Virus record (IMG/VR): IMGVR_UViG_3300010157_000068
Coordinates: 1-60,628 of that record
DNA length: 60,628 bases
Direction: 5' to 3' (one strand)
Source of the DNA: a virus
The notes below the pieces were generated by a model that worked only from the letters and a program-made list of their open reading frames with translations, did no database searches and was not told the DNA's origin. The position numbers and the translations under genes were made by a program. The first letter of the stretch is position 1. Every line of letters starts with the position of its first letter. Positions 13,299 to 58,513 of this stretch are shown here, piece by piece.

Positions 13299-14720
13299 AT
13301 GGGAGTATTATCTACACCAGGCTATGATTTACAGCCGTCTGCTGAGAAGAAAACCTTAGCATCAAATTACATCACAAACTTCGACTTCTTGAATCAGTAC
13401 TTACCAGATACTTACGAGAAAGAGTTTGAAAGATACGGTAACCGATCGGTTGCATCGTTCTTAAGATCAGTAGGGGCTGAGATGCCTTCAACATCTGACC
13501 TTATCAAGTGGGCAGAACAAGGTCGTCTACACACTAAGTATGTTAACTGTGTTGCAACAGGCTATTCTGCCGGTGCTGATACGGCTACAATCATCGTTAA
13601 TGACGTATTAAATCCTGCCGTAACTACAGGAACTGGAATTGCATTTAGAAAGGGACAGACAGTATTTTTATCTGATAACAACGAAGCTTCTAAATCTAAC
13701 AAGGCAATTATCACTAACGTAAACTACTCTGCCAGCACATTTGATGTAGCTTACTATGAAGGTGGAGGCCAGACATTTGGAGCTACTGACGTGATCACAG
13801 CGTTTGTTTATGGTTCAGAGTTCAGAAAAGGTACAGAAGGAATGGTTGAGTCTTTAGAGGCTAACGACATATTCTTAGAGAACAGCCCGATCATCATCAA
13901 AGATAAGTACGCGGTATCTGGTTCAGATATGGCTCAAATCGGATGGGTTGAGGTTACTACTGAGAATGGGGCCACCGGATATTTATGGTACATTAAGTCA
14001 GAGCATGAGACTCGTCTACGTTTTGAGGACTACTTAGAATTAGCTATGATCGAAGCTGTACCTGCTGAGTCAGGATCTGGAGCTGCTGCCCAATCTACAT
14101 TTGGAAATAAGGGTTCTGAAGGTTTGTTCTACTCGGTTGCCGACAGAGGTAACATCTGGGGAGGCGGTAACCCAACCACATTGTCTGACTTTGATACTAT
14201 TATCCAACGTCTTGACAAACAAGGAGCTATTCAAGAGAACGTGTTGTTTGTTAACCGTCAGTTCTCTTTCGATATTGATGATATGTTGGCTGCTCAAAAC
14301 TCTTATGGTGCAGGTGGTACATCTTATGGTTTGTTTGATAACGATAAGGAAATGGCGTTGAACTTAGGTTTTACAGGATTCCGTAGAGGTTACGACTTCT
14401 ATAAAACTGACTGGAAGTACTTGAACGATGCTGCAACTCGTGGAGGTGTAGTTGGAGGCGCAGTTAACGGAGTTTTAGTCCCTGCTGGATCTACTACAGT
14501 TTACGATCAGGTGTTAGGTAAAAACGCTAAGCGTCCTTTCTTACACGTAAGATACCGGGCCTCTGAGACAGAAGACAGACGCTACAAGACTTGGATTACA
14601 GGTTCTGCTGGAGGAGCTACAAACTCTTCTTTAGATGCAATGGAGGTTCATTTCTTGTCTGAAAGAGCTTTATGTACTCTAGGAGCTAACAACTTCTTCT
14701 TATTCGAAGCTAATAGCTAG
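13299..14720 (+). CDS. Major capsid protein
   Basis: 473 residues, immediately after the scaffold. The codon choice is unlike neighbours (CGT Arg, AAC/TTC rich), as expected for the most abundant virion protein. The order is an N-terminal arm, a beta-rich domain with an ..IVNDVLNPAVTTGTGIAFRKGQ insert, then helices and a ..FLSERALCTLGANNFFLFEA end. It resembles HK97-fold capsids of crAss-like phages. A strong terminator follows the stop. Confidence 0.88.
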   Translation: MGVLSTPGYDLQPSAEKKTLASNYITNFDFLNQYLPDTYEKEFERYGNRSVASFLRSVGAEMPSTSDLIKWAEQGRLHTKYVNCVATGYSAGADTATIIVNDVLNPAVTTGTGIAFRKGQTVFLSDNNEASKSNKAIITNVNYSASTFDVAYYEGGGQTFGATDVITAFVYGSEFRKGTEGMVESLEANDIFLENSPIIIKDKYAVSGSDMAQIGWVEVTTENGATGYLWYIKSEHETRLRFEDYLELAMIEAVPAESGSGAAAQSTFGNKGSEGLFYSVADRGNIWGGGNPTTLSDFDTIIQRLDKQGAIQENVLFVNRQFSFDIDDMLAAQNSYGAGGTSYGLFDNDKEMALNLGFTGFRRGYDFYKTDWKYLNDAATRGGVVGGAVNGVLVPAGSTTVYDQVLGKNAKRPFLHVRYRASETEDRRYKTWITGSAGGATNSSLDAMEVHFLSERALCTLGANNFFLFEANS

Positions 14721-45645: not shown

Positions 45646-45656
45646 GTCTAAATAAT

Positions 45657-45685
45657 ATTAAAAACCCTCCGTCTATAGGAGGGTT
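45657..45685 (-). terminator. Rho-independent terminator after the SSB-like gene (minus strand)
   Basis: Eight-base stem AACCCTCC / GGAGGGTT (45663-45670 with 45678-45685) with a seven-base loop. On the - strand it is followed by TTTTTAAT. It splits recombination from replication genes. Confidence 0.85.
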
Positions 45686-45695
45686 ATGGTTAATG

Positions 45696-47029: not shown

Positions 47030-47030
47030 A

Positions 47031-47612
47031 CTACTTCAATAAATCTCCTAAGGCCTTCTTAACGGCAGTGGATAGGTTATACTTCACTGATAAATTCTTG
47101 ACGATCGTGTTCAGGTCCATCTTGGACTTGTTGGCGGTAACGTAGTTAACCACTCCTGCCCAGTTCGTGTCGTCAACCTTAAGGTCAATCTTTGTGGAAG
47201 GGACTGGCTTGGTGGCCTTTGCCGTGTCAATAGAGTCCTCTCCACTCCACAAATTTAGTCCAAGGCCGTGCATCGCTATCGCCTTAGTTGTTGATCTTTG
47301 AATCGTTTTATTAACATCCATCGACGTGATAGCATCAATTGATATCGACTTGTTGTTGTAGCTCATGATCGGAAGGTAGTCGATATGCTCTAGGCCGTCT
47401 ATGTTTACCCCGACCTTTACATAGGCGCTCTTGCCGTCGTTGAAGTAGTTAAGGCCTGTGTGAGGGTCCTCGTATACTGTTCGGTTAAGTGACGGGTATA
47501 ATGCCTTGGCGCTGCCCCACGCGTTTGACCAGCTTAGGTAGTCCTGGCCGCCCTTCTTCTCTATCTTAGACTTGATGTCTACCTCTGATAACTTCTTGAA
47601 TGTGTTCTCCAT
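47031..47612 (-). CDS. Sak3-like single-strand annealing protein (DUF1071)
   Basis: 193 residues. The start ..KIEKKGGQDYLSWSNAWGSA and later ..RSTTKAIAMHGLGLNLWSGE are typical of the DUF1071/Sak3 family, which anneals complementary single strands. With the exonuclease downstream and an SSB-like gene it completes a recombination set. A run of five TTTA units lies in its ribosome-binding region. Confidence 0.83.
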   Translation of the reverse strand: MENTFKKLSEVDIKSKIEKKGGQDYLSWSNAWGSAKALYPSLNRTVYEDPHTGLNYFNDGKSAYVKVGVNIDGLEHIDYLPIMSYNNKSISIDAITSMDVNKTIQRSTTKAIAMHGLGLNLWSGEDSIDTAKATKPVPSTKIDLKVDDTNWAGVVNYVTANKSKMDLNTIVKNLSVKYNLSTAVKKALGDLLK

Positions 47613-47614
47613 TG

Positions 47615-47634
47615 TTTATTTATTTATTTATTTA
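47615..47634 (-). repeat. (TTTA)5 tandem repeat in the leader of the annealase gene
   Basis: Five perfect TTTA units (TAAA on the - strand). They cover the stop of the upstream 62-residue gene and end two bases before the ATG of the annealase gene. Slippage here would change the spacing upstream of the start, where Bacteroidota use A/T-rich translation signals. Confidence 0.8.
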
Positions 47635-47816
47635 TAGTTATTTTTTTTATCAATCTCCCTCGCCTTATCTACAAACTTGGTCAGGTCAACATGAGAATGG
47701 TACATGGTAACGTACCTTATTTTTGGTGTGTCTGTAAGGTTTCCGTCGTCGTCGAGGTATATCTCTTCCGCGTGCAAGGTCTTACTTATTAGGTACTCTA
47801 GCGCTGACTGCTGCAT
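47628..47816 (-). CDS. Hypothetical 62-residue protein
   Basis: MQQSALEYLISKTLHAEEIY.. then VTMYHSHVDLTKFVDKAREI. No known domain. Its stop is within the TTTA repeat, and its start overlaps the upstream gene by 19 bases. Confidence 0.65.
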   Translation of the reverse strand: MQQSALEYLISKTLHAEEIYLDDDGNLTDTPKIRYVTMYHSHVDLTKFVDKAREIDKKNNYK

Positions 47817-48199
47817 GTTTCTAATTTTAAGATGTTAATTGTTTCTACGAATCTATTAATGACCGTGTCTCTGTACTTTACTAGCGTGTTATACCTTCTT
47901 AGGTTGCTCATGGTCTTTATCTCAGCTGAGATCTTGTCGGACACGTTGTTTAGGGATCGGCTGTTGTTCTTGGTGGCTATCACGCAGCAGCCAACCTTCC
48001 ACCCGTGCCTCTTGAATACTAGGTACTCCTCAGGAGAGATCTCCGAGTAGTAGTCACCGTTAAACTTTGTGTTGAGTATAACGATGTCTCCGGACCGGTT
48101 CTCTATCTTTACCCCTTTAAATATGTAAGACACCGAATGGTCCGTAACAATTCTTGTGCTCGTCTTATCTCTGCTGGCCTGATCAAATACTTTATTCAT
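47798..48199 (-). CDS. Hypothetical 133-residue protein
   Basis: Beta-rich first half (..VSYIFKGVKIENRSGDIVILNTKFNGDYYSEISPEEYLVF) with a ..HGWKVGCCVIAT.. core, then a helical tail with N-R-F-V-E-T-I. Recognised only as a phage hypothetical near recombination genes. G/C-rich relative to the genes upstream. Confidence 0.7.
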   Translation of the reverse strand: MNKVFDQASRDKTSTRIVTDHSVSYIFKGVKIENRSGDIVILNTKFNGDYYSEISPEEYLVFKRHGWKVGCCVIATKNNSRSLNNVSDKISAEIKTMSNLRRYNTLVKYRDTVINRFVETINILKLETCSSQR

Positions 48200-48202
48200 A
48201 AC

Positions 48203-48607
48203 TTATTTCTTTTTAAATTGTTCAAATAATTTATTGATTAAAGCTCCATCAAGCATAATACCATAATGCTTTCCATATTCTCCAAAAGCATTGTAAAGAA
48301 TCTCTCCAACTTCTTCCTCACTATACATTCTTTTAGCTTTCCATTCAGCACCATCTACTACACCTGCTTTGTATGCTAATTGTAATTCTTCTGAGTGACC
48401 ATATAGTAAATCATTGTTTTCATGAATTATGTATAATTTTTCACCAATTTCTTCAAGTGTTTCTTGTTTAGGTAAAGACTTGTAAGCCATTTCAGCGTCT
48501 AAATGCATACATTTTTGAATTGTTTTTGATTGACCAATAGCGTAATCAGAAATTATATCTCCTGTGCTTTTTGGGTATTCTTGTTTAGGTTCTTCTTCTT
48601 TCTTCAT
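48203..48607 (-). CDS. Hypothetical flavobacterial-phage protein, 134 residues
   Basis: Acidic, helical protein. The C-terminal MYSEEEVGEILYNAFGEYGK.. and NKLFEQFKKK segment is a recurrent module at the ends of small hypothetical proteins in flavobacterial phages and prophages. First of a visibly more A/T-rich block (48203-49974), suggesting recent exchange. Function unknown. Confidence 0.68.
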   Translation of the reverse strand: MKKEEEPKQEYPKSTGDIISDYAIGQSKTIQKCMHLDAEMAYKSLPKQETLEEIGEKLYIIHENNDLLYGHSEELQLAYKAGVVDGAEWKAKRMYSEEEVGEILYNAFGEYGKHYGIMLDGALINKLFEQFKKK

Positions 48608-48610
48608 AAT

Positions 48611-48880
48611 TTACATTTTCAAAAGTTCGTCTTTTATTTGGTTTAGATACACTAATTTTACAACAATATCGTGATTATAAATAATTCTTAAAACTTCCTC
48701 CAACAACTCAATCTCTCGGTTGATTGATATTAGTGCGCATTGTGCCTTATGTCCTTGATTCATAGAAACAGGAAGTCCTTTAGAGTCTTTATTTTTACCT
48801 CCTAGTTTGTAATAATAAATTACGTTATCGTATTCTTTAATCCTTCTCTCCGCTTCTTGTCTTGCTTGTTCTTGTGTCAT
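48611..48880 (-). CDS. Hypothetical 89-residue helical protein
   Basis: MTQEQARQEAERRIKEYDNV.. then ..QCALISINREIELLEEVLRI; mostly helix/coiled coil. A common small protein type in flavobacterial phages without assigned function. Confidence 0.68.
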   Translation of the reverse strand: MTQEQARQEAERRIKEYDNVIYYYKLGGKNKDSKGLPVSMNQGHKAQCALISINREIELLEEVLRIIYNHDIVVKLVYLNQIKDELLKM

Positions 48881-49104
48881 AACTTCTCCTTAAATTTTGT
48901 TAGTAATTGGTCGATGTCCTCAACTGCAACAGCAGTATTAAAATTATCTACATCATATTTTTTACTCTTAACCTCCTCCGCAAATGCTTCTAGTAGGTAG
49001 TTGGAGTAGGCTTGTGCAAAAGCTAAATCATCATCTGTTACCCAACAAATAGCATTTTGTTTATCACTCTTAAACCACTCCTTTGATGATAGTATTTTAT
49101 CCAT
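48877..49104 (-). CDS. Hypothetical 75-residue protein
   Basis: MDKILSSKEWFKSDKQNAIC.. then ..LLEAFAEEVKSKK. and a C-terminal VEDIDQLLTKFKEKL, similar in style to the ends of the neighbouring accessory proteins. Unknown function. Overlaps both neighbours. Confidence 0.65.
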   Translation of the reverse strand: MDKILSSKEWFKSDKQNAICWVTDDDLAFAQAYSNYLLEAFAEEVKSKKYDVDNFNTAVAVEDIDQLLTKFKEKL

Positions 49105-49267
49105 TGTTATCGTTAATAATAGTGTTTAAATGAAACATTGAGTGTAAAAATGCTAGTGCAAAAGCCAATACAGATAATTTATTTAAATCATTGTAGAAAG
49201 CTATTACTCCACAAGCTAAACAAATAGCGCATCTTATTAAGTATATGTTTTTTAATATTTTATCCAT
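49097..49267 (-). CDS. Small membrane protein, 56 residues
   Basis: - strand frame MDKILKNIYLIRCAICLACG.. to ..LNTIINDNNG, with two hydrophobic stretches (about residues 9-23 and 33-46). The first four residues MDKIL repeat those of the downstream gene, whose start it overlaps by eight bases. Role unknown. Confidence 0.6.
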   Translation of the reverse strand: MDKILKNIYLIRCAICLACGVIAFYNDLNKLSVLAFALAFLHSMFHLNTIINDNNG

Positions 49268-49763
49268 TGTGTTTAGTTATTAGTTGTTTAAGTTCTTTTA
49301 TTATTGGATTTGAAAAACTATACTGTTGGTCGTTATAAAAATAATCATAAGCATTTTCTAATCCTTTAACCAACTCCTCCTTATCCCTTCTCAACTCCTC
49401 TATTGTTTTATCTCTTTGTTGTAAAGCATTTTCACAATGTTTAAGAAGTTTTTTTGTTTTTTCTAAATCAATATTACTAAGTTCTAAGTCTAACTTTGAC
49501 ATATCTATTTCTTTCTGTGCGTGGTTGTAGGCTTCCTCTAACTGTGTAATGTATCTAAGAACACTAATTGGTGTTGTCATATAATTTTCTTGACAATTTT
49601 CTTTGTAATAATTAATGTCTTTCTCAATAGTCTGTTTAGGTTTAACCTCAATATAATGCCCTTCACTTCCACAAGGACTATCGCAATTTACACAACGATA
49701 AAACTTATTAGCTTCACCGCAAAATATTTCTTTAGGTTGGTCTTGTGGGATGTTCTTATTCAT
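49260..49763 (-). CDS. Coiled-coil protein with Cys-rich start
   Basis: 167 residues from the ATG at 49763, chosen because it overlaps the previous stop by eight bases; the frame is open upstream without support. The N-terminus has C-G-E-A..YRCVNCDSPCGSEGHY, a zinc-knuckle-like cluster, followed by a long coiled coil (LEEAYNHAQKEIDMSKLDLE..). A common flavobacterial-phage type. Function unknown. Confidence 0.65.
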   Translation of the reverse strand: MNKNIPQDQPKEIFCGEANKFYRCVNCDSPCGSEGHYIEVKPKQTIEKDINYYKENCQENYMTTPISVLRYITQLEEAYNHAQKEIDMSKLDLELSNIDLEKTKKLLKHCENALQQRDKTIEELRRDKEELVKGLENAYDYFYNDQQYSFSNPIIKELKQLITKHNG

Positions 49764-49974
49764 AATATTTGTCTTTAAAGATTTGTAATAGTTCGGTGGA
49801 AGTATATAATACTCCTTTATAATCAAACTTATCATCCCAACAATCATAGTCGGTGTTATTTTTTGCAAAATTCGCAAACTTAACAGCAAAATCATCCGCT
49901 ATTTGTTCGCACTTATCCGCTTTGTCAAAATAGTCTAAAATTATAGCTTCAAACTTCTCTCTTAACTTACTCAT
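49756..49974 (-). CDS. Hypothetical 72-residue protein
   Basis: MSKLREKFEAIILDYFDKAD.. then ..YDCWDDKFDYKGVLYTSTEL. Acidic and helical. Last gene of the A/T-rich accessory block. Unknown function. Confidence 0.65.
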   Translation of the reverse strand: MSKLREKFEAIILDYFDKADKCEQIADDFAVKFANFAKNNTDYDCWDDKFDYKGVLYTSTELLQIFKDKYYE

Positions 49975-50147
49975 AACTCTATTATTAAAGGATTGCTTAC
50001 CGTATTAATATGGTTATTGTAGACCCTCTGATAGGCCTCAGACATTCTGCTCGCGTCCGCGTAGTGGATCGTCTTGACCCTGAGTCTCATCCACCGATCG
50101 AACCTATTCATCTCTCTGGCTGCCGCCTTGCTCTTTGTATCTTTCAT
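49971..50147 (-). CDS. Small basic protein, 58 residues
   Basis: - strand frame from ATG 50147: MKDTKSKAAAREMNRFDRWM, then RLRVKTIHYADASRMSEAYQ, ending ..NPLIIEL. The stop overlaps the next ATG (ATGA). Arg-rich; may bind nucleic acid. No family is recognised. Confidence 0.65.
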   Translation of the reverse strand: MKDTKSKAAAREMNRFDRWMRLRVKTIHYADASRMSEAYQRVYNNHINTVSNPLIIEL

Positions 50148-50271
50148 TTTTGTATATCTTTATGTAATAATTTAGTAACTCCTTGTCTGTCATGTAAGCG
50201 AAGTCTATAGTCCGCGTGTGCCCGTAGAACATTATCATCTCTAAAACGGTGCTCCTTCTGTTAAATTGCAT
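50104..50271 (-). CDS. Small phage protein of the MNRRTT-type, 55 residues
   Basis: MQFNRRSTVLEMIMFYGHTR, then TIDFAYMTDKELLNYYIKIY.. . I recognise this short pattern (RR.T.LEMI.FYGHTR.I....M.D.EL) from crAss-like phages, always without function. It overlaps the next gene by 44 bases in another frame. Confidence 0.7.
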   Translation of the reverse strand: MQFNRRSTVLEMIMFYGHTRTIDFAYMTDKELLNYYIKIYKNERYKEQGGSQRDE

Positions 50272-50315
50272 GCTCTAGCTTCTTAGTGCCTGACTTGACT
50301 GTCTAGCAAGTTCCA

Positions 50316-50507
50316 TTAGCAGTTTCTTAATAAATGACATATCGTCTTGTGTTTTAGGTTGTTATTAACTACGTTTTTAGCCTCCGACCATGGAAGGTCA
50401 CACTCATCAGCGGTCATCCTTACCAAGGCACCGTACACCCTTTGGCGTCTCTTCTCCGTCTGAAGGAACGCCCTGATGTCTACTCTGTTTACTATCCTAG
50501 GTCTCAT
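50316..50507 (-). CDS. Hypothetical basic protein, 63 residues
   Basis: MRPRIVNRVDIRAFLQTEKR.., then VRMTADECDLPWSEAKNVV. The start overlaps the upstream stop (ATGA). Helical and Arg-rich; nucleic acid binding is possible. Unknown function. Confidence 0.6.
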   Translation of the reverse strand: MRPRIVNRVDIRAFLQTEKRRQRVYGALVRMTADECDLPWSEAKNVVNNNLKHKTICHLLRNC

Positions 50508-50650
50508 GCCTGTATTGGGTTAGATGTTGCCTCGCTCCATCCTGCCAACTCTTTCCAAATTCGGAAGAGTTTTTTAGAGCGTATTATGTCTCTCTCGGTG
50601 ATAACGGACTTATTAAATATGTCCACTATCTGTTGCTCAATTTTTTTCAT
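50504..50650 (-). CDS. Small helical protein, 48 residues
   Basis: - strand frame MKKIEQQIVDIFNKSVITER, then DIIRSKKLFRIWKELAGWSE, ending ..NPIQA. It is coupled on both sides by overlaps (14 bases upstream, ATGA downstream). Unknown function. Confidence 0.6.
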   Translation of the reverse strand: MKKIEQQIVDIFNKSVITERDIIRSKKLFRIWKELAGWSEATSNPIQA

Positions 50651-51428
50651 CGCTCAATATTTTAATTAGTTCCTCCTTACCGTATTTTAATGAAAGTTGC
50701 TCGATGTCGGAGGGTAGGGTGTTTTCGATTTTTTCTGCCCAAGTGCCGTTTTTAAAAATTAAACATCCTCCCTTATATAGTTCATTATCTTTAAAATAAA
50801 ATGTAGTTATATCTCCGTTTAAATCTACAATTCTACCATCTGCTAAAGAGTGAACTTTCACCCCCTTTTTAAACCCTCTCTTAACCGCTTCTTTAGTCAA
50901 TGCTTCTTCTACTTCTTGGGGGGTGGCTAGAGTCCATTCTGAAATAGGGTATCCACTTAATCCATTTTCTCTATATTTATCAAACCAAAATCCACAACTA
51001 TCAATTCCATATCCTAATCCTTCGTTATAAGCCACAGTTCCTACGCTATTTTTATACCACTTCCCAACCTCCAAACTAGGCTTTCTAAACTCTTGAAACC
51101 ACTCCTCTATTTTCTCCTTGCACTCATTTAACGAGTGCAGATAGGTTATTTGTTTTTTGGTTAGGGTGTAGGTTGGTTCGATACCACAGGCATTTAAAAA
51201 TATCTGCTCGTCCCATTCCTCGTATCGTTTTTCTAAATCAAGTACCGAAATATCAAGTTCGGAACCGTTACCAATACAAGGACAGTACTTTCCAACCCAA
51301 CTATTACATAGATAAGGGTGGTACTCCAATCCCCAAACATTTTTTGTAATTCCTACCAACTTAGGCTCAATAGCCGACCACTGCTCTTTATTGCATTTCA
51401 TCGCAATAGGCGTAAATTTTGTTTTCAT
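50637..51428 (-). CDS. Hypothetical flavobacterial-phage protein, 263 residues
   Basis: Mixed protein. It includes ..TLTKKQITYLHSLNECKEKI, a KPSLEVGKWYKN.. segment and ..KRGFKKGVKVHSLADGRIV.., modules that recur in hypothetical proteins of flavobacterial phages. A/T-rich and likely exchanged as a unit. No catalytic motif seen. Confidence 0.7.
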   Translation of the reverse strand: MKTKFTPIAMKCNKEQWSAIEPKLVGITKNVWGLEYHPYLCNSWVGKYCPCIGNGSELDISVLDLEKRYEEWDEQIFLNACGIEPTYTLTKKQITYLHSLNECKEKIEEWFQEFRKPSLEVGKWYKNSVGTVAYNEGLGYGIDSCGFWFDKYRENGLSGYPISEWTLATPQEVEEALTKEAVKRGFKKGVKVHSLADGRIVDLNGDITTFYFKDNELYKGGCLIFKNGTWAEKIENTLPSDIEQLSLKYGKEELIKILSDEKN

Positions 51429-51769
51429 CTGTTAAATAATTGAATTAGGCATCCGCTTGTAGGGGCGCCTGAGTTAAACGTGTATGTTAATTTATTGTCC
51501 CTAGTCATTCCGATAACTATAGGCTTGGCTTGCTCGTTCTGAACCCTCATCTCAAAGTACCCTCGGTCCAACATCTTAACCTCTGACACTCTGTCGGTGG
51601 TTGATAGCAACGTGTCAGGTATAGAGCCGTTAAGGTCGATAAGGGTGAGTCTGTCACCCGATTGTAGGTGGATAGATGTTGTTTTTAGGTCTTCTGAGAG
51701 ACTTTCTTGCTCGGAAGGTGATGAGCACCCGTACACTAGTACAAGTGCGCTTAGGATTAGTTTTTTCAT
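51425..51769 (-). CDS. Phage-encoded lipoprotein
   Basis: 114 residues. The signal KKLILSALVLVYGC has Cys15 after V-Y-G, a near-standard lipobox, so it should be lipidated. The mature part is a small beta-rich domain (IHLQSGDRLTLIDLNGS..). It is encoded in the early region, not with lysis genes. Phage early lipoproteins of this size often block the phage's own receptor (superinfection exclusion, as T5 Llp); that role is inferred here. Confidence 0.75.
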   Translation of the reverse strand: MKKLILSALVLVYGCSSPSEQESLSEDLKTTSIHLQSGDRLTLIDLNGSIPDTLLSTTDRVSEVKMLDRGYFEMRVQNEQAKPIVIGMTRDNKLTYTFNSGAPTSGCLIQLFNR

Positions 51770-51772
51770 GTC

Positions 51773-51934
51773 TTAATGATTTAAGTTATAAAATAAGGTC
51801 CACCCTATGCATGTTAGTATCATGCATATGAATCTAAGTTGTTTGTTGTCGCCTGACTTGTTTATAAAGTCTACTGCCGATGACTCTGCATAGGACAGTG
51901 TAAAAAATAAAGATAAAAAGAATATAGCCGTCAT
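51773..51934 (-). CDS. Small exported or membrane protein, 53 residues
   Basis: MTAIFFLSLFFTLSYAESSA, then a short polar part and a second hydrophobic stretch (FICMILTCIGWTLFYN). It could be a two-helix membrane protein. It lies just before the lipoprotein gene, so the pair may act at the envelope. Confidence 0.6.
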   Translation of the reverse strand: MTAIFFLSLFFTLSYAESSAVDFINKSGDNKQLRFICMILTCIGWTLFYNLNH

Positions 51935-51944
51935 GATTATTTGT

Positions 51945-52220
51945 CTAGTTTAATTGTTCTATTTTAAATTGTTCTGAAAGTTCCTTGCATAGGTCTTCGG
52001 CAAACTTGTAGTCAAGTTTTCGGAATCGATTCTGACCATAGTGAGGTATTGCCTTTTCTCCATCCGCGCATATAACGAATGGTACCTCTTCAATAAATAC
52101 GTTTCCCGATTCTCGGATGCCTTTTATTGTGTACATACTTCCTTTTACTAAGGACTTTGTTTTTGAGTAGTCTCCGACTGCGTCGCAAATACATACTACT
52201 TTTTCTCCTACTTTAAACAT
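51945..52220 (-). CDS. SH3/KOW-like small phage protein, 91 residues
   Basis: FKVGEKVVCICDAVGD.., then ..LVKGSMYTIKGIRESGNVFI. and ..NRFRKLD. This is a widespread phage hypothetical of the 'G..V.C.......L..G..Y.I' type with a small beta barrel. The role is unknown, possibly binding RNA polymerase or nucleic acid. Confidence 0.72.
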   Translation of the reverse strand: MFKVGEKVVCICDAVGDYSKTKSLVKGSMYTIKGIRESGNVFIEEVPFVICADGEKAIPHYGQNRFRKLDYKFAEDLCKELSEQFKIEQLN

Positions 52221-52222
52221 GA

Positions 52223-52630
52223 TTATTTGTTTTGATTGTTATACCATCTGATGAATTTTACGCACGCGTTATAAACTGCATTAATTTTAATATCTGAGAA
52301 TTCAGATGACACGATACTGCTCTTAGTAACCAAGCACTGATAATCTCCGTCCTCTTGTTTGTTGATTTCGACTGAGTAATTTAGGTCCTCAATCTTCTCT
52401 ACCACATCCATTAACCAATTCCAATCTGAACTATACAAATCATCTTCCCATGACTGAGGGTTTTCGTGACCCATAAACTCAGCAATCATCTCGTTGTTCT
52501 CCTCGGTAGTAGGCTCTATGTATAGGCTCCGCTTGGCGCCCTCTAGAGTGCTATAGTCTTGGCTTTCGAATGACTCGTTTCCCTCCTGAATGACTTGTCT
52601 GTTGCCTTTTTTGTATACTACTGTGCGCAT
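52223..52630 (-). CDS. Hypothetical acidic protein, 135 residues
   Basis: Starts at ATG 52630 (MRTVVYKKGNRQVIQEGNES), chosen because it overlaps the previous stop; the frame is open further upstream without support. Acidic centre with Trp (..SSDWNWLMDVVEKIEDLNYS). Unknown function. Confidence 0.65.
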   Translation of the reverse strand: MRTVVYKKGNRQVIQEGNESFESQDYSTLEGAKRSLYIEPTTEENNEMIAEFMGHENPQSWEDDLYSSDWNWLMDVVEKIEDLNYSVEINKQEDGDYQCLVTKSSIVSSEFSDIKINAVYNACVKFIRWYNNQNK

Positions 52631-52881
52631 AATTCCCATGTGTTTAGTTTGGTTGAACGTGTTATCTCTAGGCGCTCGCATATGAACCGCGCCAACTTGT
52701 TGTTTACTGATTTTTGATCGATGCTCGGTGAGCCTATCACACTCACCACGTCGCGTGGCGACATGCCTAGTACCCGTGTGCAGAACTTGACGTCCTGACC
52801 TAGGTAGTAGATTCTGCCGTATGCCTCCAATGTCCAATCGTGTCCGAAGCCGTATGAGCCTCTTGTTATATTTACCTTCAT
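52618..52881 (-). CDS. Hypothetical 87-residue protein
   Basis: Starts at ATG 52881, coupled to the stop of the upstream gene (ATGA). MKVNITRGSYGFGHDWTLEA.. then a helical C-terminus with ..SPRDVVSVIGSPSIDQKSVN, slightly helix-turn-helix-like. Unknown function. Confidence 0.62.
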   Translation of the reverse strand: MKVNITRGSYGFGHDWTLEAYGRIYYLGQDVKFCTRVLGMSPRDVVSVIGSPSIDQKSVNNKLARFICERLEITRSTKLNTWELCAQ

Positions 52882-53129
52882 AGCTGAGTGTATAAAATTT
52901 CTAACTCGTTCTTGTGCTCGTGGTTGTTGTCTATAGCGGACTGTACCGCCTTCTTCATGCTCGTTTGGTAGTCGTACTGCTCCCAAGTTCTGTTCAGGTA
53001 CCTTACGTGGCTAGTGCCAACATAGTTGTCGTTAATGTATAACGAACTAGCATGGACGAAGCCGTCACTCTTAGAACTGTAACTATTATCTAGTCTGTAC
53101 GTGTTGTTGTTTAATTTAAATTCTTTCAT
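52878..53129 (-). CDS. First gene of the early operon, hypothetical 83 residues
   Basis: MKEFKLNNNTYRLDNSYSSK.. with ..LNRTWEQYDYQTSMKKAVQS. No known domain. Its ATG lies inside the last base pairs of control element A, so it is the first gene transcribed from that element. Confidence 0.65.
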   Translation of the reverse strand: MKEFKLNNNTYRLDNSYSSKSDGFVHASSLYINDNYVGTSHVRYLNRTWEQYDYQTSMKKAVQSAIDNNHEHKNELEILYTQL

Positions 53130-53238
53130 GTCAGAAATGTCGTTTTAGGGTTGCCCTACTCTACTATATATATTATTATATTATTATTATTTTATTTTAC
53201 TCTATAAAAGTAAGTAAAAATCAGAATACTAACATAGA
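53128..53238 (-). repeat. Control element A (inverted copy of 56151-56261)
   Basis: Read on the - strand, this 111-base element matches element B in order. There is a 23-base perfect block (53216-53238, starting TCTATGTTAGTATTC), then TTTTATAGA, an A/T-only tract, GAGTAGGG, and a 20-base perfect block (53128-53147, TAAAACGACATTTCTGACAT). It ends in the ATG of the first early gene. This points to a shared promoter-operator or origin sequence. Confidence 0.85.
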
Positions 53239-53320
53239 ATAGACTAAACCCTTATAAACAAAGGGCTCAGTCATGTGTCGTTTTCTAAAAAAATCGTCAG
53301 GCCATGTCAGATAATCGACA

Positions 53321-53328
53321 CAAACCTA
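53321..53328 (-). promoter_or_regulatory. Possible Bacteroidota -7 element upstream of element A
   Basis: Reads TAGGTTTG on the - strand, then TGTCGATT. It fits TAnnTTTG and would give a ~190-base leader through element A. Confidence 0.45.
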
Positions 53329-53667
53329 TACTTTTATGCGTCTGAATAGCTTCTCGTCGAACTTGTACGGCTCTCCCGTGTACCTTGGACTGAATGCTAT
53401 CGCGTCCATCACGTCTGTTGAGATGGCAATACTATCCTGAGTCATCTCCGATGCCAGGTTCTCGAAGTCGGTTAGGACCTTAGACTGCCTAGCGTACTTG
53501 TACTCGAACAGACCGACAAATGTCGGCTCTACGTTTCCTAGGTACTCCATATCTACGATTTGGAATCCCATCAGCCTATAGTTGCCTTCCGATGCCATCC
53601 TGTCTATTACTTCTGAAGCCGTGTAGGGGTTGTTGTTTAACCCGATGTTTACTTGTAGTGTTTTCAT
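53326..53667 (-). CDS. Hypothetical 113-residue protein
   Basis: LQVNIGLNNNPYTASEVIDR, then ..EPTFVGLFEYKYARQSK. and a basic end. A family of small phage proteins ('VN.GLN.NP') with unknown function. Last gene of the ribozyme-led operon, before element A. Confidence 0.7.
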   Translation of the reverse strand: MKTLQVNIGLNNNPYTASEVIDRMASEGNYRLMGFQIVDMEYLGNVEPTFVGLFEYKYARQSKVLTDFENLASEMTQDSIAISTDVMDAIAFSPRYTGEPYKFDEKLFRRIKV

Positions 53668-53957
53668 GCCTTTTTAATTTGAATGTTTAACGTTGGATAT
53701 TTTAATGAGAAGCTAGACGCGACCTCTAGGGTCTCGTCGTAAGAACTAAACCCGAATATTTTAGTCTCTTCTAGGTTGTCGTCAATTAGTACGACCTCGT
53801 AGTTATCTTCACTGTCCACGCTCTCTGTTACGTACAGAAAGTTGTTGTCCTTGGCTTGCTTTTCAAGCGCCTCATAGCACGCATCGTATGTTGCCTCGCT
53901 ATCAAAGATGGCTACCAATTCAGCGTAGCCATCCGTCTCAAAGTATACTCTTACCAT
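53664..53957 (-). CDS. Hypothetical acidic 97-residue protein
   Basis: MVRVYFETDGYAELVAIFDS.., acidic and mixed alpha/beta (ferredoxin-like spacing). No known family. Overlaps the next gene by four bases. Confidence 0.68.
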   Translation of the reverse strand: MVRVYFETDGYAELVAIFDSEATYDACYEALEKQAKDNNFLYVTESVDSEDNYEVVLIDDNLEETKIFGFSSYDETLEVASSFSLKYPTLNIQIKKA

Positions 53958-53962
53958 AATAA

Positions 53963-54139
53963 TTAGAATGTGCCCTCTGTGGGCGGTTTGTGGTTATCAA
54001 TCATCTCCTTTAGTCTCTCTATGGTGCCCGATTGGGCAATGACCTTGCCCCTCTCGTACCTATAGTTGGTGTGCTTGTTGCCCTTGTAGTCTGTACGTTC
54101 AAACTCTGTAACGTACCTCATAAATTCTGTGTAGTCCAT
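53963..54139 (-). CDS. Hypothetical 58-residue protein
   Basis: - strand frame MDYTEFMRYVTEFERTDYKG, then ..YRYERGKVIAQSGTIERLKE, ending KPPTEGTF. It fills the space between two accepted genes with 2- and 5-base gaps. Unknown function. Confidence 0.65.
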   Translation of the reverse strand: MDYTEFMRYVTEFERTDYKGNKHTNYRYERGKVIAQSGTIERLKEMIDNHKPPTEGTF

Positions 54140-54141
54140 AC

Positions 54142-54393
54142 CTATTCTATTTCAGTTAGTACCCCGTCTACCTCCTCGTATTGGTAGTCATCCTCGTCCT
54201 CCCACTCTGTGTAGTAGCACTCTTCGTTGTCGTTGTCCTCCCACTCTGCCTCAAACATCTGCTCGAAGTCATCGTATCCGTTAAATGCAGCGACCTCGTC
54301 TGCCATCGATTGCTCGGAGTAGTACTCACCAAATATGTACCACCCCTTGTTCATTCCCTTGCCCGAAAACGAGCACTTTCTTGCGTACTTCAT
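54142..54393 (-). CDS. Small acidic phage protein of the KYARKCS type
   Basis: 83 residues. The start MKYARKCSFSGKGMNKGWYI is a pattern widespread in phages; the rest is strongly acidic with Trp and Tyr (..AEWEDNDNEECYYTEWEDED). Possibly a DNA mimic or protein inhibitor, but no evidence shows this directly. Confidence 0.72.
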   Translation of the reverse strand: MKYARKCSFSGKGMNKGWYIFGEYYSEQSMADEVAAFNGYDDFEQMFEAEWEDNDNEECYYTEWEDEDDYQYEEVDGVLTEIE

Positions 54394-54773
54394 AATTTTA
54401 GTATTAGTTGATTTGATTTGTATATCATCGCAGTGAGTATGCCTCTAACGTTAGGCACAAAGAAGTTATCCTTGACCACCTTGTTAAGTTCTCTTTTCAC
54501 TACTAGTCTCTCCCATATAGTTTGAAAAGAAGCCAAGGGGTCTATGCAGTCCCAAAGACCGTTCGCGCTTATGTATTCCCTAGCTTCCTTGTATGTTGAG
54601 TAAGGACCCTCGTGTAACGCTAGGCGTACCTCGAAGTCGTGAGTAGACATACCTAATTCCTTAGCTACAATCTCTGTAGCTTTGTATATCAATTCCTGAG
54701 TCTCGTCAGAGTAGAACCTACCCTCGCTTTGCAGTCTGTCTAAGACATCTTCTACTATTTTTAGTGCTCTCAT
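54390..54773 (-). CDS. Hypothetical helical protein, 127 residues
   Basis: ALKIVEDVLDRLQSEGRFYS, then ..KATEIVAKELGMSTHDFEVR.. . Mostly helical. No known family. Coupled upstream to the membrane peptide and downstream to the KYARKCS protein by ATGA overlaps. Confidence 0.68.
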   Translation of the reverse strand: MRALKIVEDVLDRLQSEGRFYSDETQELIYKATEIVAKELGMSTHDFEVRLALHEGPYSTYKEAREYISANGLWDCIDPLASFQTIWERLVVKRELNKVVKDNFFVPNVRGILTAMIYKSNQLILKL

Positions 54774-54949
54774 CTTATATCTTTGTTAAATACGTAAATC
54801 ATTACCGCGCTTAGTACCATAATCATCTCTAACCACCCCACAAGGATGATGTTAATGATACTTTTGTCAGGCATCTCAATGCCCAACTTGATTACAAGGA
54901 TGGCGCCTAGTATAAACACCACCATTAGTAGTTTGTCTGTTGTCTTCAT
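54770..54949 (-). CDS. Small two-helix membrane protein, first gene after the ribozyme
   Basis: 59 residues, - strand: MKTTDKLLMVVFILGAILVI, then ..NIILVGWLEMIMVLSAVMIY. Two membrane helices with a short polar loop (KLGIEMPDKS). It begins 65 bases after the hammerhead cut site, so its mRNA would start with a 5'-OH end made by the ribozyme. Role unknown. Confidence 0.7.
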   Translation of the reverse strand: MKTTDKLLMVVFILGAILVIKLGIEMPDKSIINIILVGWLEMIMVLSAVMIYVFNKDIR

Positions 54950-54966
54950 AACTATAATGTTTTAAG

Positions 54967-55021
54967 TAACTGTTTCGTCATTTGTGACTCATCAGTCAGG
55001 GCACACACCCTGATACAGTTA
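54967..55021 (-). ncRNA. Type III hammerhead ribozyme
   Basis: All core parts are present on the - strand, in order: stem III 5' strand TAACTG (55021-55016); cleavage triplet G-U-A, cut after 55014; stem I TCAGGG, loop TGTGTG, CCCTGA (55013-54996); conserved CTGATGA (54995-54989); stem II GTCA, loop CAAA, TGAC (54988-54977); conserved GAAA (54976-54973); stem III 3' strand CAGTTA (54972-54967). Every pair is Watson-Crick. Stem III is the open stem, making it type III. Loops I and II could make the usual tertiary contact. It should cut its transcript between 55014 and 55013. Confidence 0.93.
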
Positions 55022-55279
55022 ACGACCTATGCCTATGTAGTTGGCAGTATCGTAGCTTCGGACCTAAAGGATTACTTTGACCTCTTATTCCTGAGTAGCT
55101 ACACCCGATGTTATAGTCTGTTCTGACTGCCTCCACTTTATAGGTCTGTGGTACCGACCGAGTTAATGACTGCCTTACTCCGCAGTGGTGATTCTTTTGA
55201 CTAGCACAGTGAACCACCTAAACTATATCGACTTTTTCTTTGGAGTCGTGAACCGTGAGAAGAACGTTGTCCCTTTTGA
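55014..55279 (-). ncRNA. Structured leader RNA whose 3' end is made by the hammerhead
   Basis: On the - strand, perfect compatible helices are P1 55140-55146 with 55024-55030 (GACCTAT/ATAGGTC), P2 55126-55131 with 55043-55048 (GGCAGT/ACTGCC), a three-pair step 55107-55109 with 55049-55051, and P3 55097-55102 with 55052-55057 (GTAGCT/AGCTAC). The 3' side of P2-P3 is 15 consecutive paired bases. Upstream hairpins are 55244-55248 with 55229-55233, and 55213-55217 with 55185-55189. Together with the promoter at 55285 this defines an RNA of about 265 bases after self-cleavage. No known class is matched. Boundaries are inferred. Confidence 0.6.
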
Positions 55280-55284
55280 CACTG

Positions 55285-55292
55285 CAAACATA
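55285..55292 (-). promoter_or_regulatory. Bacteroidota-type -7 element for the ribozyme leader (minus strand)
   Basis: Reads TATGTTTG then CAG on the - strand, fitting TAnnTTTG. It would start transcription near 55279. No clear -33 element. Confidence 0.5.
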
Positions 55293-55332
55293 TGGCGAGT
55301 GTTTCAGTTGACCTAGAAAAAAATGATAAATC

Positions 55333-55367
55333 CGATTAAGTGCACAGTTTTATCGATTAAATGCACA
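55333..55367 (+). repeat. Direct repeat with 21-base spacing (operator or iteron pair)
   Basis: CGATTAAGTGCACA (55333-55346) and CGATTAAATGCACA (55354-55367) differ at one base and are exactly 21 bases apart, two turns of DNA, so a protein pair would bind one face. It lies about 40 bases upstream of the ribozyme promoter. Confidence 0.7.
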
Positions 55368-55454
55368 TCTGATAGAGTAGATTCCTACAAATCGTGTAGA
55401 TATTACTGCTCACAATATGTAACTGATTGATAACGAGATAGTTAATATGTATAG

Positions 55455-55540
55455 TAACTTTGCATATATAGAACGCGTGTGCGTAGGTGACTAACGGGTG
55501 TTAGTTAACTTGCCATCTGTAAGCCTTTAAGCGCTTTTTT
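55455..55540 (+). ncRNA. Possible small RNA with promoter element and terminator-like end
   Basis: TAACTTTG (55455-55462) fits the -7 element. Downstream is a six-pair hairpin ACTAAC-GGGT-GTTAGT (55490-55505), then a weak stem AAGC/GCTT running into six T (55535-55540). This would give an RNA of ~70 bases. The terminator stem is weak and no ORF fits. Confidence 0.35.
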
Positions 55541-55597
55541 CTTACAATTCAATAACAAAACCCTACATATAATACGAATTTCGCATTTTAAAGCTAT

Positions 55598-55810
55598 TTA
55601 AGCGACGATTATGTAATCAGAGGTAGTTAGATACCACCTACCCAGAGATAGTGTCTTAATCGCAAATCCCCAATGAATACGCGGGCTCACGTCGTAGGAA
55701 TATACTGCAGTATAGTTGCAGACTATCAGGCCTTGGCTGCTCCATAGATCTCTGTTATAGTTTACTCTTACCCGTTTGTTGTCGGCTATCCGTTTACAAA
55801 TGGATATCAC
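55598..55810 (-). CDS. Weak ORF, 70 residues, GTG start
   Basis: GTG-started frame on the - strand with ..RVRVNYNRDLWSSQGLIVCN.. and ..SLGRWYLTTSDYIIVA. The composition is protein-like, but no RBS or homologue is recognised and it lies alone in a regulatory region. A 14-base palindrome sits eight bases upstream. May be chance. Confidence 0.3.
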   Translation of the reverse strand: MISICKRIADNKRVRVNYNRDLWSSQGLIVCNYTAVYSYDVSPRIHWGFAIKTLSLGRWYLTTSDYIIVA

Positions 55811-55817
55811 CGTATCG

Positions 55818-55831
55818 CATATCGCGATATG
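55818..55831. promoter_or_regulatory. Perfect 14-base palindrome
   Basis: CATATCGCGATATG, perfectly self-complementary, with no loop; it is a likely protein-binding site rather than a terminator. Confidence 0.5.
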
Positions 55832-56061
55832 AAATGCAGAAGACTTGCCATCGTAATGTCAAACGTGCACGTCACAAGCTATCAGATAGGGGATGGAAAA
55901 AGCTAAAAAATCTGAAAGAAATTTCTGAAAATGTGACCCCGGGGGTGAAATAAAAGCGACTTTCGGATGAGGCATGCCGACGTGAAACCTATATATAACC
56001 CAAACACCATACATTTCTAACATATTTTTTTTAGCTCATCCCTTGCTATCAGAGGGCTACG

Positions 56062-56101
56062 TCGATTTTTGATGCCTTGTGTCGATTTTGTGTCGATTTT
56101 T
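56062..56101 (+). repeat. Three GTCGATTTT boxes upstream of element B
   Basis: Perfect GTCGATTTT at 56062, 56082 and 56093 (20 and 11 bases apart, about two and one helical turns), the last two preceded by TGT. A related TGTGTCGATT lies upstream of element A (- strand, 53322-53313). This looks like an iteron or regulator site. Confidence 0.65.
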
Positions 56102-56150
56102 TTTAAAGTTGTCATGAGATAATTATTTGACTATCAAGTAGTTAGCTATC

Positions 56151-56261
56151 TCTATGTTAGTATTCTGATTTTTTTCCTATTTTATAGAAGAAAAAAAATA
56201 AATATATATATATAATTATATATAGAGAGAGTAGGGAGATGTAAAACGACATTTCTGACAT
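56151..56261 (+). repeat. Control element B (inverted copy of 53128-53238)
   Basis: Same order as element A: a 23-base block at 56151-56173, TTTTATAGA, an A/T-only tract (56190-56227), GAGTAGGG, then the 20-base block TAAAACGACATTTCTGACAT (56242-56261). It precedes groEL, whereas copy A precedes the early operon, both in the direction of transcription. Confidence 0.85.
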
Positions 56262-56262
56262 A

Positions 56263-56281
56263 CAACTATTTTTAATAGTTG
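56263..56281 (+). promoter_or_regulatory. Dyad operator candidate at the groEL promoter
   Basis: CAACTATT-TTT-AATAGTTG: eight pairs with a three-base centre. It is placed 25 bases before the -7 element, over the expected -33 region. It has no T tail, so an operator is more likely than a terminator. Confidence 0.55.
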
Positions 56282-56305
56282 TGAATCATATATATAAAAA
56301 AACCA

Positions 56306-56313
56306 TATATTTG
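56306..56313 (+). promoter_or_regulatory. Bacteroidota-type -7 element for the groEL operon
   Basis: TATATTTG followed by CCCC, 34 bases before the groEL ATG. A TTG lies at 56279-56281, 24 bases away, slightly longer than usual spacing. The leader before the ATG is extremely A/T-rich. Confidence 0.65.
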
Positions 56314-56347
56314 CCCCATACAATAATTAAATTAAATTTTTTTTATA

Positions 56348-57931
56348 ATGAGCAACGAATTATTTTTTAAAGAAGAGGGCCGTCAGAAACTTGTAGATGG
56401 TATCACAAAGATCAGCAGCGCTGTAAAGAGCACCCTAGGCCCTAGGGGGAAGACTGTGCTTATCGAATCACAGAACCACGTGCACGGTATAACTGTGACA
56501 AAGGATGGTGTAACTGTGGCTAAATCAATAACACTTGAGGACCCGGTAGAGAACCTGGCTGTAAAGATGATGAAGGAGGCTGCGGACCGTACGGCGACAA
56601 GCGCAGGAGATGGTACAACAACCGCAATTGTTCTAACAGAGGCAATAGTAAACAAGGGGACCGAGTTTATAACCAGTAGAAATAATCCTACCATGGTCCT
56701 TAGGGAGGTGAACACGATCGTGGACGGCGTTGTAAAGACACTTGAGAAGAAGTCAAAGAAGGTCAGAGGAAAGACCCTAAGAGATGTCGCGTCTATATCC
56801 GCAAACAATGACAAGGAGATAGGGGATATTATCGCTGACGCGTACTCAAAGGTTGGCAAGGACGGCGTTGTGACTGTTGATGACTCCCAGGACGAGAACA
56901 CATACGGAGAGGTGACAAACGGAATCCGGGTGGATAAGGGGTACACGAGCAGGCTATTTGTGAACGACATGAAGAAGGAGGAGTGCATACTAGACAACGT
57001 GTACGTGATGGTCACAGACCAGGAGATAAATAACATGATGTCTATAGAGAACGTCCTAAAGCCGATAGTTCAGGACAAGAAGAAGCTCCTTATAATTGGC
57101 CCGTGTACAAACAACATGATCAACACACTAGCCGCGAACGTAATACATAACGACCTTAAGTTCTGTAACATTCCGCCCCCACAGTTTGGTTACAAGCAGC
57201 AGGAGCTGATGCAGGACATAGCCCTGGCACTTGGAGCCACGTACTTCAGCGAGCAGACCGGAGACGACCTTTCGCTAATGACGCCGGAACACCTGGGACT
57301 AGCCAAGAGAATTATAGTCGGAAGGGACTCTACAGTAATTGTAAGGAATGAGGACGCCAGCGAGGCCGTTAAGGAGAGAGTGGCACAGTTATGGGTTCAG
57401 CACGAGAACTCGTCTAAGAAGGGCGAAAAGGATGCGATTAAGGAGCGCATAGCCTCTCTATCTGGCGGAGTAGGAGTGATACACGTAGGAGGAGGATCGG
57501 GCGTGGAGCAGAAGGAGCGCAAGGACAGGGTCGACGACGCGGTCTGTGCTGTAAGGAGCGCGCTTGAGGAGGGGATCATACCAGGAGGAGGTGTGGCACT
57601 ATACAACGCGGCGTCTGACATCATAGCGTACGCTGACGATAACATGGAGCATATAAGTCACGACCAGTACACGGCGATGCAGATCGTTGGCTGGGCACTT
57701 CAGGCACCCCTGATTCAGATAATGGAGAACGCAGGGCTGGACGCCTACGCGATAATGGCCTCTATCAGCGAAGAAGGGCACGGGTACGATGTAAAGAACG
57801 AGTGCTACGGAGACATGATGGCCATGGGCGTTATTGACCCGTTAAAGGTTACCAAGAACGCTCTGAAGAACGCGACCAGCGTAGCCACGACAATACTTAG
57901 TACGAACGCGATAGTAACAATTAAACGATAG
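56348..57931 (+). CDS. groL: Phage-encoded chaperonin GroEL
   Basis: 527 residues, a full Hsp60. ATP-site motifs are at the E. coli positions: LGPRGK (30-35), TKDGVTVAK (51-59), GDGTTT (87-92), the catalytic Asp near residue 396 in RVDDAV, and IPGGGVAL. The apical domain is diverged (..YTSRLFVNDMKKEECI.., ..MMSIENVLKPIVQDKKKL). The chain ends ..NAIVTIKR with no Gly-Gly-Met tail, which in bacterial GroEL lines the cavity. Phage chaperonins usually fold capsid or tail proteins too demanding for the host machine. It is co-transcribed with its own GroES two bases downstream. G/C-richer than nearby genes. Confidence 0.97.
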   Translation: MSNELFFKEEGRQKLVDGITKISSAVKSTLGPRGKTVLIESQNHVHGITVTKDGVTVAKSITLEDPVENLAVKMMKEAADRTATSAGDGTTTAIVLTEAIVNKGTEFITSRNNPTMVLREVNTIVDGVVKTLEKKSKKVRGKTLRDVASISANNDKEIGDIIADAYSKVGKDGVVTVDDSQDENTYGEVTNGIRVDKGYTSRLFVNDMKKEECILDNVYVMVTDQEINNMMSIENVLKPIVQDKKKLLIIGPCTNNMINTLAANVIHNDLKFCNIPPPQFGYKQQELMQDIALALGATYFSEQTGDDLSLMTPEHLGLAKRIIVGRDSTVIVRNEDASEAVKERVAQLWVQHENSSKKGEKDAIKERIASLSGGVGVIHVGGGSGVEQKERKDRVDDAVCAVRSALEEGIIPGGGVALYNAASDIIAYADDNMEHISHDQYTAMQIVGWALQAPLIQIMENAGLDAYAIMASISEEGHGYDVKNECYGDMMAMGVIDPLKVTKNALKNATSVATTILSTNAIVTIKR

Positions 57932-57933
57932 AC

Positions 57934-58194
57934 ATGCAGCCAATAGGTAAATACATAGTGATAACTCCGATAGAGGAGCAGATAAAGTCGGACGTAACCG
58001 GACTGATAATGTCAGGTTCAGATGCCGCCAAGATGAGGTACAAGAAGGCCGAGATAGTAAGGGTTGGAACGGAGGTCACCGCTGTGAGTGATGGGCAGAC
58101 GATATACTACGACAAGAACGCTGGGTTCAGCATGGTGACACAGGCCGGTACGTACACGGTGATAATGGAGAGGGATGTTATTGTGATTATTTAA
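57934..58194 (+). CDS. groS: Phage-encoded co-chaperonin GroES
   Basis: 86 residues (bacterial GroES ~95-97). It has the strand PIGKYIVITPIEE, a mobile loop with GLIM at 23-26 in place of the GIVL that docks to GroEL, then KKAEIVRVG and a closing strand ..MERDVIVII. The roof hairpin is shortened. Directly behind groEL, it should cap that ring. Independent of the GroES-like tandem protein at 6256. Confidence 0.92.
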   Translation: MQPIGKYIVITPIEEQIKSDVTGLIMSGSDAAKMRYKKAEIVRVGTEVTAVSDGQTIYYDKNAGFSMVTQAGTYTVIMERDVIVII

Positions 58195-58204
58195 AATAAA
58201 TTTG

Positions 58205-58212
58205 TATCTTTG
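58205..58212 (+). promoter_or_regulatory. Bacteroidota-type promoter (-33 TTG and -7 TATCTTTG)
   Basis: TATCTTTG with a TTG at 58181-58183, spaced 21 bases: the best -33/-7 pair in the window. It lies only four bases before the ATG at 58217, so the mRNA would be nearly leaderless. Confidence 0.72.
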
Positions 58213-58216
58213 CACC

Positions 58217-58513
58217 ATGGGGTTATTCACTTTCAATATTAACTATTATTCAGACGACAAGACGCTGTCTGATATTAACAAAAAACTAGACAAGATTATG
58301 GCAAACGTTCAAGAGTTAACAGATTTAGTAGACGCGTTACAGGCTTCAGTTGACACGCTACAGGAAACAATTACAACCACTATCACTGGCTTAGATGCAA
58401 CTATTGCAGACCTAACGGATCAGTTGGCTAATGGGGCAACACCTGCTCAGGTTCAAGTATTAGTGGAAAAATTGACTGCTACAAAGGCAGACTTGGAGGC
58501 TACTAACGTATAA
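58217..58513 (+). CDS. Small coiled-coil protein
   Basis: 98 residues from ATG 58217; an alternative ATG at 58298 would suit a transcript starting at the adjacent promoter. After ..DINKKLDKIMANVQELTDL the chain is a regular heptad coiled coil with Thr/Ala-rich repeats (..LQETITTTITGLDATIADLT..). Similar short coiled coils are common in Bacteroidota phages. Own promoter and terminator suggest strong expression. Role unknown. Confidence 0.72.
   Translation: MGLFTFNINYYSDDKTLSDINKKLDKIMANVQELTDLVDALQASVDTLQETITTTITGLDATIADLTDQLANGATPAQVQVLVEKLTATKADLEATNV

Follow-up and report, generated by a model that had tools for sequence, protein, structure and literature searches.

The 60,628-bp stretch of viral DNA analysed here (IMG/VR record IMGVR_UViG_3300010157_000068, class "linear"; hereafter the window) carries two neighbouring genes on the same strand that encode the two halves of a group I chaperonin, GroEL and GroES (Table 1). 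The deduced GroEL matches the Pfam family Cpn60_TCP1 (PF00118, E=2e-65, residues 22-525 against profile positions 1-488 of 490) and the deduced GroES the family Cpn10 (PF00166, E=5e-8), both scores exceeding the curated cut-offs, and PHROGs assigns them to groEL (E=1e-137) and groES (E=4e-11), respectively. The AF2 model of GroEL (mean pLDDT 83.5) has the equatorial, intermediate and apical fold of group I chaperonins, and Foldseek matches it to GroEL structures (E about 1e-49; for 1oel, TM 0.83 and E=6e-49). The GroES model (mean pLDDT 88.6) matches GroES 8wuw (TM 0.81) and also the fold of T4 gp31, confirming the beta-barrel. Chance is untenable as the source of these matches.

A first-pass annotation had described a coupled pair with both halves present, intact ATP motifs and no GGM tail, and all of this was confirmed. 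The ATP-site residues D52, D87, T89-T91, D398 and D495 are all present, and they are invariant in the 82 members of the phage clade defined below, save for one partial sequence at D52. A GGM-rich C-terminal tail, common though not universal in group I chaperonins, was found in none of 91 phage GroELs, compared with 74 of 80 bacterial ones; in E. coli GroEL the last 13 residues have been reported as necessary (PMC11978752). The 110 nt upstream of groEL, when scanned for promoters, yielded the -7 motif of Table 1 alone, a weak call with a poorly fitting -33 spacing; similar motifs occur 31-40 nt upstream of the gene in several relatives.

The window holds nearly all of a genome of about 60.7 kb, in agreement with its initial description as a phage of some 60 kb. 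End repeats were not found in the 60,628-bp record. In three relatives (L010, L011 and L035), however, the counterpart of the window's right-end gene lies about 600 nt ahead of an M15 peptidase gene, the one found at the left end of the window, and joining the window's ends gives a spacing of about 550 nt, against about 600 nt inside L010. Moreover, a relative with the same layout, MW202828, is circular with 60,850 bp. In another relative of 61.7 kb, the capsid gene spans both ends of the record. PHROGs matches in the window include TerL, portal, the capsid candidate and virion proteins; the closest cultured kin are podoviruses of Bacteroidota, and the host group is probably Bacteroidota as well. 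MW202828 (an uncultured podovirus from Manatee Spring, annotated only as encoding "groeL" and "chaperonin 10 kd") and the closest IMG/VR relatives share with the window 56-81% identity in GroEL, layout, gene order and the residue changes described below, and together form what is here called the clade.

Table 1. Positions of the chaperonin genes, their elements and related features within the window.
Feature	Position	Strand	Remarks
Capsid candidate	13299..14720	+	473-aa (51.6 kDa) virion protein, homolog of the phi38:1 putative major capsid protein
TATATTTG	56306..56313	+	Bacteroidota-like -7 promoter motif (TAnnTTTG), 42 nt upstream of groEL
groEL (Cpn60)	56348..57931	+	527 aa, 57.1 kDa; full ATP site, no GGM tail (Pfam, PHROGs, AF2)
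Inter-ring site 1 region	56663..56677	+	K105 to E (aa 106), A109 to S (aa 110)
Apical domain	56918..57472	+	About aa 191-375; groove Y203L, L234E, V263A, V264A (E. coli numbering; alignment)
Other canonical inter-ring sites	57659..57751	+	E434/D435; R452 to I (aa 456), E461 to D (465), S463 to Y (467), V464 to A (468)
groES (Cpn10)	57934..58194	+	86 aa, 9.4 kDa; 2 nt after the groEL stop codon
GroES mobile loop	57982..58035	+	Tripeptide LIM; 2 residues longer than bacterial; low-confidence (flexible) in AF2
Place of GroES roof hairpin	58066..58098	+	9 residues; coil in AF2 model, pLDDT about 98
TATCTTTG	58205-58212		Bacteroidota-type promoter motif upstream of ATG 58217 of the coiled-coil ORF

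Apical groove, lid and ring-ring contacts

The strong divergence of the apical domain noted in the first annotation is real: with 33% identity to bacterial GroELs it is the least conserved domain, whereas among bacteria no domain is better conserved (76%). The changes extend to the groove that binds both substrate and GroES, where (in E. coli numbering) Y203 is replaced by L or M, L234 by E in 81 of 82 clade GroELs, E238 by K or R in all 82, V263 by A in 77 of 82 and V264 mostly by A, with L237 retained. Mutations of groove residues in E. coli GroEL impair the binding of polypeptide as well as of GroES. Placed in E. coli GroEL, L234E should weaken its hold on GroES, a point against the reading preferred below; L234, L237 and V264 are key residues for this interaction (PMC12696368, with numbering one lower). 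As judged from the alignment, the rewired groove is a novelty of the whole clade.

The lid has been reshaped at two places. Its mobile loop is longer by two residues (three in one case) in all 82 clade GroES, spanning 25 residues compared with 23 in bacteria. The tripeptide in this loop, singled out early on as changed, does read LIM after the conserved Gly where bacteria have III, but it is not noteworthy in itself, being a conservative variant in a clade dominated by LLL (the commonest), LIM and LIL. The roof spans 9 residues in 82 of 82 clade GroES, compared with 13 or 18 in most bacteria (18 in E. coli), and the AF2 model of the window's GroES contains no roof beta-hairpin. A 9-residue roof also occurs in 2 of 71 bacterial GroES, roof length being variable in bona fide GroES, and is shared by Elemovirus and phage DAC19, so that the clade is not alone in this trait; its combination with the lengthened mobile loop is a clade-wide feature newly described here. 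An absent roof and a lengthened mobile loop are also the traits of T4 gp31, which is believed to let the host GroEL fold the 56 kDa gp23 (PMC6318259). This definition, including the roof-less state of gp31, was taken from that work, as the sequence alignment of gp31 is unreliable in the roof region; the window's GroES has both traits.

In E. coli GroEL, the two rings are joined through the pairs K105-D435 and R452-E461, and the SR1 mutant carries changes at R452, E461, S463 and V464 (PMC5575113). The window has E/D and I/D at these pairs, and thus, reading the contact residues alone, lacks the salt-bridge signature of a double heptameric ring. An opposite-charge pair is retained at K105-D435 in only 2 of 36 clade members and at R452-E461 in 5 of 36, compared with 64 of 64 dereplicated bacteria in both cases; judged from these alignments, near-absence of both salt bridges is a clade-wide novelty. 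In the clade, entropy at eight inter-ring sites averages 2.40 bits, compared with 0.78 in bacteria; for equatorial sites of like bacterial entropy the value is 0.95 bits, and none of 5000 draws reached 2.40. Sites in the intra-ring stem and termini are nearly fixed (0.30 bits, compared with 1.16 for random equatorial sites). The site lists are those of E. coli GroEL. Mean pairwise identity is alike in the clade and bacterial sets (0.64 and 0.68), so that the depth of the sets does not explain the contrast. The simplest inference from these patterns is that ring formation is under selection and ring pairing of the GroEL type is not. As the canonical ring-ring contacts are lost and those within the ring nearly fixed, the rings are most likely single, or pair only transiently.

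Loss of the E. coli-type contacts is no proof of single rings, since other chaperonins pair their rings by different means. Human Hsp60 has no salt bridge of either kind and still makes football complexes (PMC5575113), and the phiEL chaperonin uses non-GroEL contacts to build double rings that are sensitive to ATP (PMC7185714); the two salt bridges do not define all group I members, as mitochondrial Hsp60 illustrates. A functional phage GroEL-GroES with stable double rings, held together by a different, lineage-specific interface, is accordingly the alternative to be taken most seriously, and the AF2 monomer resembles single-ring and double-ring chaperonins alike. Such a replacement interface should nevertheless have left conserved positions nearby, whereas the region of the distal inter-ring sites is hypervariable and prone to indels across the clade, with a 13-residue gap in two members (L055 and L061) and an insert of about 20 residues in a third (L067). 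We therefore consider stable double rings rather unlikely, and single or transiently paired rings the better reading.

A candidate client and the proposed mode of action

The first-pass annotation also proposed a dedicated substrate. This is plausible in view of the apical divergence, the rewired groove, the shortened lid and the presence of GroES in every phage tested that has the capsid-candidate gene and a record long enough to judge. The 473-aa protein is assigned as a capsid candidate because it is homologous to gp093 of Cellulophaga phage phi38:1 (45% identity); a Pfam search of it returned no HK97 capsid domain. By reversed numbering, gp093 corresponds to gp067 of PMC13288928, where it is a putative major capsid protein, and the same rule fits GroEL (gp005 = gp054) and the polymerase (gp012 = gp047). 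The capsid-candidate gene was used to fetch 42 records; GroEL and GroES are both encoded in every one of the 14 that reach 50 kb, and those without GroEL are shorter fragments (<50 kb); GroEL was likewise found in the six tested records with at least 45% identity to the 473-aa protein. Cellulophaga phages phi18:3 and phi46:3, with a capsid homolog of 27% identity, encode GroES and no GroEL. The capsid-chaperonin link is one of co-occurrence, and the relatives lacking groEL differ in much else too. On this basis the 473-aa protein is plausibly the best candidate substrate.

The GroES genes of phi18:3 and phi46:3 are located at 31108-31362 of NC_021794 and 28569-28790 of NC_021792, respectively. 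Both phages are distant relatives of the window and of the Baltivirus/Bacelvirus type. By analogy with T4, GroES in phi18:3 and phi46:3 would represent a gp31-like half system within the same wider lineage.

Taken together, the sequence patterns point to a functional, phage-specialised group I chaperonin, probably single-ring and with its own lid, plausibly serving the 52 kDa coat protein, a reading to which we assign a probability of roughly 0.6. GroEL would form heptameric rings with ATP-binding and ATPase activity; on ATP binding, a ring would accept its cognate GroES and enclose the phage substrate, working singly or pairing only transiently, with release independent of a second ring. The rewired groove and the longer-looped, roof-shortened lid would fit an exclusive partnership of GroEL and GroES whose cage is more spacious or open at the top. 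Single-ring GroEL of E. coli is non-functional owing to overly tight GroES binding, and becomes functional once this binding is weakened (PMC5575113); the alterations at L234, V263 and V264 might represent just such a tuning towards weaker binding. The client would most likely be a virion protein produced in large amounts, with the 52 kDa major capsid candidate ranking first, and the task performed in T4 by gp31 and host GroEL would here be carried out with both parts encoded by the phage. In keeping with this reading, phi38:1 produces its GroEL during infection, and the protein is seen in infected cells (PMC13288928). It is tempting to go further and speculate that an obligate single-ring, capsid-dedicated GroEL-GroES is present lineage-wide in Bacteroidota podoviruses, with a recoded interface (L234E/E238K, extended loop) incompatible with host GroES. 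We put this forward tentatively, as possible rather than probable; if true, it would be the natural counterpart of engineered single-ring GroEL-GroES systems.

Alternatively, the phage GroES might act mainly on host GroEL, in the manner of gp31, with the phage GroEL in another role, such as that of a holdase or of a component associated with the virion. The GroES-only phages phi18:3 and phi46:3 fit such an arrangement, as does phi38:1, in whose free-virion preparations GroEL was detected through methylated peptides, one of only two methylated phage proteins there (Table 3 of PMC13288928); it may thus travel with or in the virion. Detection in virions may, however, reflect carry-over of an abundant cytosolic protein, and in the clade both groove and loop are altered relative to bacteria, and the two genes, adjacent or nearly so in 80 loci, are both under purifying selection. 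This division of labour is thus improbable, and a phage GroEL working with its own GroES remains the preferred reading.

Comparison with known systems places the pair among several relatives. T4 resembles the window in the traits of gp31 and in the logic of enlarging the cage for a capsid protein of ~55 kDa, but has no GroEL of its own, and gp31 shares the fold without clear sequence similarity. Pseudomonas phages EL and OBP encode GroEL homologs that form single rings, but these are giant phages with no known GroES partner. Membership in their GroEL-like group was rejected, the window's GroEL being far closer to the ancestral GroEL of the FCB group (E=2e-124) than to phiEL 6tmt (E=3e-29). Elemovirus (Flavobacterium phages vB_FspP_elemo, 60 kb) is related through TerL (46%) and the capsid candidate (48-51%) and has groES directly after groEL, but its GroEL is only 37% identical, K105, R452 and L234 are kept, and the mobile loop is not lengthened. 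Phages phi38:1 and Calle (Callevirus, Pervagoviridae, 72 kb), related through TerL (36%) and the capsid candidate (45%), have both Cpn10 and GroEL annotated; unlike in the window, Cpn10 lies upstream of GroEL with one gene between, and GroEL, at 36% identity, sits on a long branch of its own. A profile of the window's clade did not find the Callevirus Cpn10. Bacteroidota GroEL-GroES share the fold, the ATP site and the three-domain group I architecture with Cpn10, but differ in identity (at most 43% among the matches listed), in the groES-groEL order, and in having the GGM tail, the salt bridges and a longer roof.

Whether the GroEL-GroES cage needs a second ring is a long-running question, pursued mostly with engineered mutants and mitochondrial Hsp60. 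The clade offers many natural, strongly selected pairs in which the ring-ring signature is gone and the lid is kept and reshaped. With cultured Elemovirus, Callevirus and GroES-only Baltivirus on Flavobacterium and Cellulophaga hosts, capsid folding by GroES alone could be compared with folding by a complete phage chaperonin.

Distribution, selection and descent

A complete pair in a small genome had at first been regarded as uncommon. This argument fails, because the pair is universal in the lineage records tested and known in Elemovirus, Callevirus and the phi38:1 group: groES lies downstream of groEL on the same strand in all 80 of the closest IMG/VR loci, mostly within a few hundred bases (in one locus the gap is 2.6 kb), and both genes are annotated in cultured phages of Elemovirus (60 kb) and Callevirus (72 kb). 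In the phi38:1 group, 36 environmental genomes had already been found to encode GroEL (Nishimura et al. 2017, PMC5332604). A GroES, annotated or detected, likewise accompanies GroEL in Panino (77 kb), immuto and DAC19. Of the first interpretation, a real, coupled and specialised pair with intact ATP machinery stands, and its rarity does not. A phage GroEL-GroES pair as such is of a known kind; what is new is a clade that has lost the ring-ring signature and shortened the lid. The order of the genes is a clade-wide novelty as well, groEL-groES in 80 of 80 loci, the reverse of the groES-groEL order seen in 73 of the 74 bacterial loci where it was found. In a circular, myovirus-like genome of 38,956 bp (MW202566), smaller than that of the window, groeL and an adjacent mhsp60 ORF are annotated.

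Both genes are under purifying selection, with dN/dS of 0.01-0.12 for groEL and 0.10-0.23 for groES, values that are rough at deeper divergences, where dS is near saturation. The large apical and inter-ring divergence might be taken as a sign of decaying or non-functional chaperonin genes, but reading frames intact in all 80 relatives, the invariant ATP site and the low dN/dS of groEL make this very improbable.

The tree of GroEL places the phage clade on one branch outside bacteria (support 100), with a possible deep origin in Bacteroidota (support 79), and the best match among solved structures is a reconstructed ancestor of the FCB group (E=2e-124). Close identity to a host groEL was also looked for, and the best bacterial match among those listed, from a Flavobacterium MAG, is 43% identical. 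The clade's version of the chaperonin is thus old. That an unspecialised host groEL was acquired recently, as the GC content of groEL (0.50, genome mean 0.39) and the host-nested GroEL of another Bacteroides phage, DAC19, might suggest, can be dismissed given this low identity, the fully supported branch, the reversed gene order and a raised GC that was seen in each of the 73 relatives measured and is shared by replication genes of the window itself. High GC was likewise rejected as a sign of foreign origin. In DAC19 (179 kb), where a GroES with a 9-residue roof is encoded upstream of GroEL, GroEL nests within Bacteroidales and, on the evidence of the tree, appears to be an independent, more recent capture.

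Several features elsewhere in the window deserve mention. A 1033-aa ORF (1679-4780) upstream of the terminase gene has no PHROG and no significant Pfam family. A small coiled-coil ORF (58217-58513), its likely start being ATG 58217, directly follows groES and has no match in the other fetched loci. Between the leftward early genes and groEL, about 1.4 kb (54950-56347) contain no convincing gene, possibly representing a divergent promoter or origin region. Within 42483-58194, several replication genes and groEL/groES have a GC3 of about 0.6, compared with about 0.35 in virion genes, which suggests two classes of codon usage, perhaps split by time or level of expression.
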